From: Pelagibacteraceae bacterium AG-404-P08
GTDB taxonomy: Bacteria; Pseudomonadota; Alphaproteobacteria; HIMB59
Length of the DNA: 64,000 bases
NCBI GenBank assembly: GCA_003216195.1
Contig: QCJF01000001.1
Location: forward strand, 1 to 64,000
Reading direction: 5' to 3'
Shown: positions 43,785 through 53,940 of the stretch, one piece after another
Layout: the number at the start of each line of letters is the position of its first letter
Numbering within the stretch: position 1 is the stretch's first letter
The notes under the pieces: model-generated
What the model was told of the DNA's origin: nothing
Seen by the model: only the letters and a program-made list of their open reading frames with translations
Database searches by the model: none
Program-made: the position numbers and the translations under genes

Positions 43785-43909
43785 GCCCTAAGATTATTAT
43801 TTTTCATAAATTCATGCAAAAAATACACGAATTATATAGGATTTTTATATTTTAGTTTCACTCAAGATAAGTCTATACTGCCGAAGCTTATATATATAAG
43901 GAGGAAACG

Positions 43910-44935
43910 ATGACAAAAATTAAATCATTGTTTATTTCTCTTGTTTTAACTTTAGGTGTTTCAACAGCTATCGCTGGTAGCCATGGAAGCACACTAGATT
44001 TAGTTAAAGAAAGAGGAAAGTTAATGTGTGGATCAAACACAGGTCTTGCGGGCTTTGGTGCTCCTAATGATGCTGGTGTTTGGGAAGGCATTGACGTGGA
44101 CGTTTGTAGAGCTGTTGCAGCTGCTGTTTTTGGTGATGCTTCAAAAGTTGAGTATGTACCAGTAACAACTAAAGTTAGATTTACAGTGTTACAATCAGGT
44201 GAAGTTGACTTATTATCAAGAAACACAACATGGACTTTATCAAGAGACGTTGATCTTGGTTTAGAATTTGTTGGTGTAAATTACTATGATGGTCAGGGTT
44301 TTATGGTTCCTGCTGCTTTAGGCGTGTCTAGTGCAACTGAATTAGATGGTGCATCAGTATGTATCCAAGTTGGAACTACAACTGAAATGAACTTAGCTGA
44401 CTACTTTAAAGCAAACGGTATGTCCTATGAGTCAGTTCCAGTTGAAACTAATGCAGAAGCTGATGCTGCTTATATTGCAGGTCGATGTGACGTTTACACA
44501 ACAGATGCATCTGGTTTATACTCAAGCAGAGCAGGTTATGCAGATCCATCTGCACACGTGGTACTGCCTGAAATTATCTCCAAAGAGCCTTTAGGTCCAG
44601 CTGTCAGACACGGAGATCATGAATGGGGTGATATTGTGAGATGGTCACTTAATGCAATGATCATTGGTGAAGAGCTTGGTATTACATCTGATAATGTTGA
44701 AGAGATGAAAAGTTCTAAGAACCCTGAAGTCTTAAGACTGTTAGGTGTTGAACCAGGTTATGGCGCTTACTTAGGCCTTGATAATGAATGGGCTGTTAAT
44801 ATTTTATCACAAGTAGGTAACTACTCTGAGAGCTTTGAAAAGCATATTGGTCCAAATACACCAATTAATATTCAAAGAGGTCTTAACGCTCTATACAAAG
44901 ATGGTGGTATTCTTTACGCACCTCCATTTAGATAA
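43910..44935 (+). CDS. aapJ: General L-amino acid ABC transporter substrate-binding protein (AapJ/BztA)
   Basis: Signal peptide; LMCGSNTGLAGFGAPNDAGVWEGIDVDVCRAVAAAVFGDASKVEYVPVTTKVRFTVLQSGEVDLLSRNTTWT; GGAGG Shine-Dalgarno at ~43900. Confidence 0.96.
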   Translation: MTKIKSLFISLVLTLGVSTAIAGSHGSTLDLVKERGKLMCGSNTGLAGFGAPNDAGVWEGIDVDVCRAVAAAVFGDASKVEYVPVTTKVRFTVLQSGEVDLLSRNTTWTLSRDVDLGLEFVGVNYYDGQGFMVPAALGVSSATELDGASVCIQVGTTTEMNLADYFKANGMSYESVPVETNAEADAAYIAGRCDVYTTDASGLYSSRAGYADPSAHVVLPEIISKEPLGPAVRHGDHEWGDIVRWSLNAMIIGEELGITSDNVEEMKSSKNPEVLRLLGVEPGYGAYLGLDNEWAVNILSQVGNYSESFEKHIGPNTPINIQRGLNALYKDGGILYAPPFR

Positions 44936-52716: not shown

Positions 52717-53328
52717 ATGAACGAGTTTATTTTTGGTTTTTCAACAGGTTTAAGTTTAATACTTGCTATAGGTGCACAAAATTTATTTGTTATAGAGCAA
52801 GGTATAAAAAAAAATAATATTTTTTTAGTAACTTCAATATGTATAGTTGGTGATTTCTTATTGATTTTTTTTGGAATTTTCATATTTCACTTTATTAAAA
52901 ATTTTATCAATGATCTGATCAATTTACTATTATCTATAGGACTTGTACTCTTTCTTTTAAATTTTATATGGTCAAAAATAAAAACATTTAAACATGATAT
53001 TGTATTTTCACAAACACATACACAATCGTCAAAGTTAAAAATAGCCCTCCAGACACTTGGCTTTACTTTTTTAAACCCACACGTTTACTCAGACACTGTT
53101 TTTATTTTAGGAAATTTATCAAAAAATTTTCTAACTATTTCTGACAAGATTTTATTTGGATTAGGTGCAAGTCTAGCGTCATTTATTTTTTTTTATTTTT
53201 TAGGCTATGGTGCTCAATCACTAAGATTATATTTTTTGAACAAACAAGTTTGGAAATTAGTTAATATAGTAATAATTCTTTATTTACTAATACTTACCTT
53301 ATCTATTATTTTCTTGGAAATAATTTGA
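52717..53328 (+). CDS. LysE/ArgO family amino acid exporter
   Basis: GFSTGLSLILAIGAQNLFVIEQGIKKNN; FLNPHVYSDTVFILG. Confidence 0.88.
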   Translation: MNEFIFGFSTGLSLILAIGAQNLFVIEQGIKKNNIFLVTSICIVGDFLLIFFGIFIFHFIKNFINDLINLLLSIGLVLFLLNFIWSKIKTFKHDIVFSQTHTQSSKLKIALQTLGFTFLNPHVYSDTVFILGNLSKNFLTISDKILFGLGASLASFIFFYFLGYGAQSLRLYFLNKQVWKLVNIVIILYLLILTLSIIFLEII

Positions 53329-53431
53329 TTATTGATTTTTATTTATAAATTATTTCATCAGCTGTCTGTAAGTTGCATAGTTGTTATGCAATCATAACAC
53401 GAGTTTTTTAAAATATTATATGTATGAATTT

Positions 53432-53517
53432 ACTAGGAGCAGTTTTTAAAAGTTTCGATTAACTCCGTGTTGACATAGATACTTAGTTATTCCCTCCTAG
53501 TTATAACAAACTGCTCC
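53432..53517 (+). ncRNA. Candidate structured RNA/leader with two mutually exclusive long-range stems upstream of the DUF2721 gene
   Basis: ACTAGGAG (53432-53439) pairs with CTCCTAGT (53494-53501); GGAGCAGTTT (53436-53445) pairs with AAACTGCTCC (53508-53517). Confidence 0.5.
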
Positions 53518-53526
53518 ATTAATAAT

Positions 53527-53940
53527 ATGCCAAGTTTCACAACACTTTATCCTGCACTTTTGTTTCCAGCTATACCTTTAATGATGATATCGTTTGGTAA
53601 TAGATATACTTCTCTTGCTTCATTAATCAGAAAGATCCATGACACAATAATTACAAATAGACCAACTAGCAATATGGTTCAACATCACTTAGATCAAATT
53701 AAAGTACTTACAACCCGTTTAACATTAGTAAGGTCAGTTCAAACCCTCTCTGGGATCAGCTTTTTGCTAAATTTAATATCTATTTTTTTTAGCTATATCA
53801 AGATTTATGACTTAGCTTTAAACTTTTTTGGTTTGGGGATATTGATATTTTCAATAGCTATAGTGTTATTTATCTATGAGATACAATTATCTACAAAAGC
53901 TCTTAGTAAACATTTGGAAGACCTGAAAGATTTTAGTTAA
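53527..53940 (+). CDS. DUF2721 domain-containing membrane protein
   Basis: LLFPAIPLMMISFGNRYTSLASLIRKIHD; two or three C-terminal hydrophobic segments. Confidence 0.75.
   Translation: MPSFTTLYPALLFPAIPLMMISFGNRYTSLASLIRKIHDTIITNRPTSNMVQHHLDQIKVLTTRLTLVRSVQTLSGISFLLNLISIFFSYIKIYDLALNFFGLGILIFSIAIVLFIYEIQLSTKALSKHLEDLKDFS

Follow-up and report, generated by a model that had tools for sequence, protein, structure and literature searches.

A conserved structured RNA with an anti-Shine-Dalgarno loop upstream of DUF2721 in HIMB59-type Alphaproteobacteria, a candidate regulator of substrate-binding protein genes

The stretch of 64,000 nucleotides analysed here, hereafter the window, belongs to a 1.24 Mb assembly of Pelagibacteraceae bacterium AG-404-P08 and carries, between a LysE-type exporter gene and a DUF2721 gene, a conserved structured RNA. 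With a probability of about two in three, this element acts in trans as a small RNA of HIMB59-type Alphaproteobacteria that does not depend on Hfq, is activated by a regulator of the LsrB/VtlR type, and represses genes for substrate-binding proteins through an anti-Shine-Dalgarno (anti-SD) loop. Specifically, an LsrB/VtlR-like activator of the LysR family would bind a dyad located about 61 bp upstream and switch on transcription, which would begin near the base of a long stem, at about position 53436. The stem would close and stabilise the RNA and expose one hairpin, or two in one lineage, with the loop UUCCCUCCUA; this loop would pair with the strong SD sites of the few genes bearing them and keep ribosomes off, the foremost putative targets being the periplasmic proteins that bind substrate for ABC, TRAP, and tripartite transporters. 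Transcription probably continues into DUF2721 in most genomes, so that the RNA would be released from, or double as, the 5' leader of that gene. The features of the locus are collected in Table 1; beyond DUF2721 lies a convergent MATE transporter gene.

Table 1. Features of the RNA locus and its neighbours in the window
Feature	Position	Strand	Basis or remark
LysE-type exporter gene	52717-53328	+	upstream neighbour of the RNA region
Upstream dyad TTGCATAGTTGTTATGCAA	53373..53391	+	GCAT-N7-RTGC, in all 39 distinct leaders
Candidate -10 element TATGAA	53423..53428	+	read by eye; weak, no -35 consensus
Conserved structured RNA	53436..53517	+	covariance model matches, pair counts
Closing stem, 5' arm GGAGCAGTTT	53436-53445	+	pairs with 53508-53517; compensatory changes in relatives
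5' hairpin TTAAC-TCCGT-GTTGA	53459..53473	+	variable; read from relatives' sequences; partly in folds
3' hairpin GTTAT / ATAAC (helix 2)	53486..53507	+	bears the anti-SD loop; 91% of cells paired
Loop TTCCCTCCTA, anti-SD seed	53490..53499	+	CCCTCCTA unchanged in 32 of 33; complementary to SD sites
Closing stem, 3' arm AAACTGCTCC	53508-53517	+	pairs with 53436-53445; compensatory changes in relatives
DUF2721 gene	53527-53940	+	Pfam; downstream neighbour, ATG at 53527

Closing stem, alternative stem, and anti-SD loop

A sequence-only reading of the locus had described two mutually exclusive pairings, in which ACTAGGAGCAGTTT (53432-53445) binds either CTCCTAGT (53494-53501), forming an inner stem, or AAACTGCTCC, forming an outer one. 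Its letters and coordinates are exact: both pairings are perfect, GGAG is common to both, and the ATG that follows opens the DUF2721 protein. The outer stem is a real, conserved RNA helix that survives the replacement of its own sequence. Across 33 relatives, GGAGCAG/CTGCTCC turns into AGAGTGG/CCACTCT with pairing retained; the close relatives, whose DUF2721 proteins are about 91-100% identical, have the arms GGAGCAGUUU...AAACUGCUCC, and the more distant ones (72-77% identical) have AGAAGAGUGG...CCACUCUUCU or CCGCUCUUCU. The covariation analysis of the leaders that had been suggested as a check supports this helix: in the model-fitted alignment of the 33 members, changes on both sides of a pair occupy 25 cells versus 6.4 in shuffles, a count matched by 0 of 500 shuffles and consisting largely of one two-lineage change counted repeatedly, which leaves few compensations that are independent, in three core pairs. 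An alignment built without structure gives the same picture, with 14 both-side changes versus 5.0. Moreover, the fold of the window copy is moderately more stable than that of shuffled sequence (z = -2.5), and the corresponding values in four relatives are -4.4, -5.3, -2.2, and -4.3. The length of 82 nt given to the RNA is the span of the closing stem rather than the distance between mapped transcript ends.

Conversely, the inner stem is not conserved. Even close relatives differ in the bases preceding GGAG (ACTA, ATTA, AATA, ATAT, TTAA), the stem shrinks to the three pairs GAG/CUC in the second lineage, and in the alignment of relatives none of its pairs is changed on both sides, so the same covariation check leaves it without covariation. 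Its CUCC is conserved because it forms the middle of the loop UUCCCUCCUA, and the stem exists because this conserved loop happens to complement GGAG. The proposal of a two-stem riboswitch or attenuator acting on DUF2721 was therefore rejected: such a device needs two conserved exclusive stems, of which only the outer one is found, and a tie to the regulated gene, from which the RNA is free in five genomes that keep it in place without DUF2721. The other option of the same reading, in which a terminal stem closes a small RNA, gains support. No Rfam family matches at gathering score over the window.

Within the closing stem, the loop of the 3' hairpin is strongly conserved: CCCUCCUA inside UUCCCUCCUA is identical in 32 of the 33 members, while much of its surroundings has changed. 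The motif CCCUCCUA or UCCUCCUA is borne on a single hairpin or, in one lineage, on two. In that lineage (L053, L055, L024), a second anti-SD hairpin replaces the 5' hairpin and presents a similar loop, UUCUA-UCYUCCUAGU-UAGAA; the 3' loop of L024 has degenerated to CCACACUA. The minimum-energy fold of the window copy partly masks the anti-SD hairpin.

The strand of the RNA is read from its helix, since the pairs in the core include G-U pairs on the plus strand, which become A-C mismatches on the minus strand. It is thus very improbable that the functional molecule is a minus-strand RNA, or a decoy whose loop (UAGGAGGGAA) would mimic an SD site for the ribosome; the hairpin does fold on the minus strand too, with similar energy, but the mismatches in the core and the fixed distance of the upstream dyad both point to plus-strand transcription.

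Distribution and independence from DUF2721

Genomes were searched with a covariance model, R1. The RNA occurs once per genome in 40 of the 52 genomes of the genus (E 6e-16 to 5e-5), and no further copies were found within the window genome. R1 finds no RNA in the 110 other genomes of the order (162 in all), nor is there any outside the genus in a class sample of 385 genomes. Four weak R1 matches (E 0.3-0.7) inspected in G053, G064, and G012 lie inside coding sequence and were discarded. A scan of species genomes for CTYAGYTATTCCCTCCTA returned 33 stretches, one from a Clostridium and the remaining ones from assemblies of Alphaproteobacteria or Pelagibacteraceae; the viral contigs scanned for the same sequence gave no match.

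The RNA is also found INDEPENDENCE from DUF2721: five genomes (G010, G021, G046, G058, G060) are without the gene, with both the RNA and the upstream dyad intact. Their gene order is TauE, TAXI-like, LysE, RNA, MATE, and the RNA thereby keeps the same chromosomal place; conversely, G015 and G024 have DUF2721 without the RNA. That the two are found apart speaks against a purely cis-acting leader, in which the structure would be the 5' UTR of DUF2721 and would control that gene only, as a riboswitch, attenuator, or protein-binding element. The position of the RNA directly before the ATG in most genomes, with no terminator in between, is what such a leader would look like, but its alternative stem is not conserved and its conserved parts sequester neither an SD site nor the start codon, which together with the separate occurrences makes this explanation improbable. 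As no terminator was found behind the stem or between the RNA and DUF2721, co-transcription followed by processing is likely, and DUF2721 is best regarded as a neighbour that is probably co-transcribed with the RNA, yet not tied to it.

Two further observations concern the neighbouring genes. Where DUF2721 is lost (L089-L093), the MATE reading frame continues and ends antisense inside the 3' part of the RNA. In addition, a distant DUF2721 paralog (25-29% identity) occurs elsewhere in many genomes of the genus (L028-L038), and those of its leaders that were inspected are without the RNA.

Upstream dyad and candidate regulators

In 39 of 39 distinct leaders, the dyad GCAT-N7-RTGC precedes the stem, by 61-64 nt to its first base, across intervening DNA that has diverged, and the pattern occurs at one place only in the 64 kb window. 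Within it, GCATAGTTGTTAT (53375-53387) fits GCAT-N3-TG-N3-T, the proposed LsrB/VtlR box (PMC7486931), and with a transcription start at 53436 would occupy positions -61 to -49; the LsrB box of the Sinorhizobium meliloti abcR1 promoter is likewise placed at -61 to -49 (PMC8844928). The exact box is restricted to one lineage (30 of the 39 leaders), the TG being lost in the second lineage. A promoter scan returned nothing at the position of the candidate -10 element.

Candidates for the activator are at hand. Five LysR regulators are encoded in each of two genomes, and two paralogs per genome match Agrobacterium tumefaciens LsrB (PDB 9HH1, identified as such in PMC11975290) with scores of 232-233 bits, the next structure scoring far lower. 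These LsrB/VtlR-like paralogs (L246/L249 and L247/L248) represent a lineage outside the Rhizobiales, the order to which LsrB has been described as unique (PMC11975290). The L249 type contains no cysteine and is therefore unlikely to sense redox state as LsrB does. Another pattern to which the dyad conforms is TGC-N11-GCA, which has been named as an NtrC motif (PMC10746234); sigma-54/NtrC-type activators were not found in G000, G004, G040, and G063, with 13 of 14 controls positive, and NtrC was set aside as regulator. Hfq was not found in the same four genomes either, three of which are >90% complete, with positive controls; a long closing stem would suit an RNA in genomes without detected Hfq.

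SD sites, putative targets, and known anti-SD RNAs

SD motifs ahead of open reading frames (ORFs) are near chance level, AGGAG preceding 1 of 68 ORFs of the window. The stricter pattern AGGAGG-N3-9-ATG occurs 60 times in the window genome and 76 times in G040, a single-contig relative of 1,410,127 bases, versus 39 and 35 times in the reversed control. The gene set examined consists of these pattern matches and their surrounding stretches from the two genomes, rather than of a full annotation, and once sites inside larger ORFs were dropped, it comprises 56 distinct proteins of at least 60 aa. Judged by Pfam families and signal sequences, 24 of these 56 are periplasmic substrate-binding proteins, versus 1 of 67 ORFs of the window; membership in the class was partly decided by hand on the basis of the family table, orthologs of the two genomes were both counted, some sites will be chance matches, and the control is a single region, so that the Fisher p of 4e-9 overstates the strength of this enrichment. 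The single strong SD site of the window, AGGAGGAAACGATG (43899-43912), precedes a gene for an amino-acid substrate-binding protein.

The loop of the RNA is complementary to the SD sites of these genes. Any anti-SD loop would match SD genes, and complementarity alone is thus no evidence of target specificity; the substrate-binding genes match the seed slightly better than the other SD genes do (p = 0.03). Seed matches to an orthologous TRAP substrate-binding protein reach 13 bp in G040 (L168), where this length is shared with another gene as the maximum, and 11 bp in the window genome (L214), where no other match is as long. Since most other SD genes match over 6-9 bp, the RNA could be a narrow regulator of one or two mRNAs, chiefly that of this TAT-signal protein; this is unlikely, considering that for known anti-SD RNAs seeds of about 8 nt suffice to act on numerous mRNAs of transporters (PMC8844928, PMC10746234).

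A broader proposal is tentative and carries clearly less weight than the assignment of the RNA itself: this SD-poor, streamlined lineage without detected Hfq may have kept strong SD sites mainly for nutrient-binding and a few abundant proteins, with one anti-SD RNA under LsrB-type control switching the uptake class. If so, SD use itself would mark the regulon, and abundant ocean bacteria would possess an Hfq-free post-transcriptional control of nutrient uptake with targets readable from the genome. The circuit from LsrB to an anti-SD RNA, studied in symbionts and pathogens of plants, would, moreover, reach free-living bacteria with streamlined genomes, and would either predate its rhizobial counterpart or be independent of it.

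The closest known counterpart is NfeR1 (alpha-r14, cuckoo RNA) of S. meliloti, which is activated by LsrB, independent of Hfq, and silences mRNAs of periplasmic binding proteins (PMC10746234). Both RNAs present the anti-SD motif in single-stranded regions of hairpins with sequence-variable stems; NfeR1, however, has three hairpins in a row, each with the ultraconserved CCUCCUCCC, a pattern absent from the RNA described here, which has a long closing stem and one or two hairpins with CCCUCCUA. AbcR1/AbcR2 (alpha-r15, RF02345) likewise carry anti-SD seeds, which they direct against transporter mRNAs, and the LsrB box of the AbcR1 promoter has the location of the candidate box here (PMC8844928), but they have two different seeds (CUCCUCCC, UUCCCCUC) and another fold, and there is no lsrB linkage here. 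RF02345 gives no match at the locus, and no alpha-r family matches up to E = 10 over 53329-53560; a class-wide alpha-r15 search says nothing on absence, as its controls also gave no match. Given the missing Rfam match, the other hairpin number, and the other motif, the RNA is not assigned to the NfeR1 or AbcR families, and a literature search on HIMB59 small RNAs returned no paper naming HIMB59. CcsR RNAs carry anti-SD loops as well. In Rhodobacter sphaeroides, RNase E releases them from a single transcript that also includes a gene for a small protein (PMC10253847), an arrangement resembling the co-transcription proposed for the RNA and DUF2721, although there a DUF1127 gene is followed by four RNAs and a terminator is present, whereas here a single RNA lies ahead of a gene for a membrane protein.
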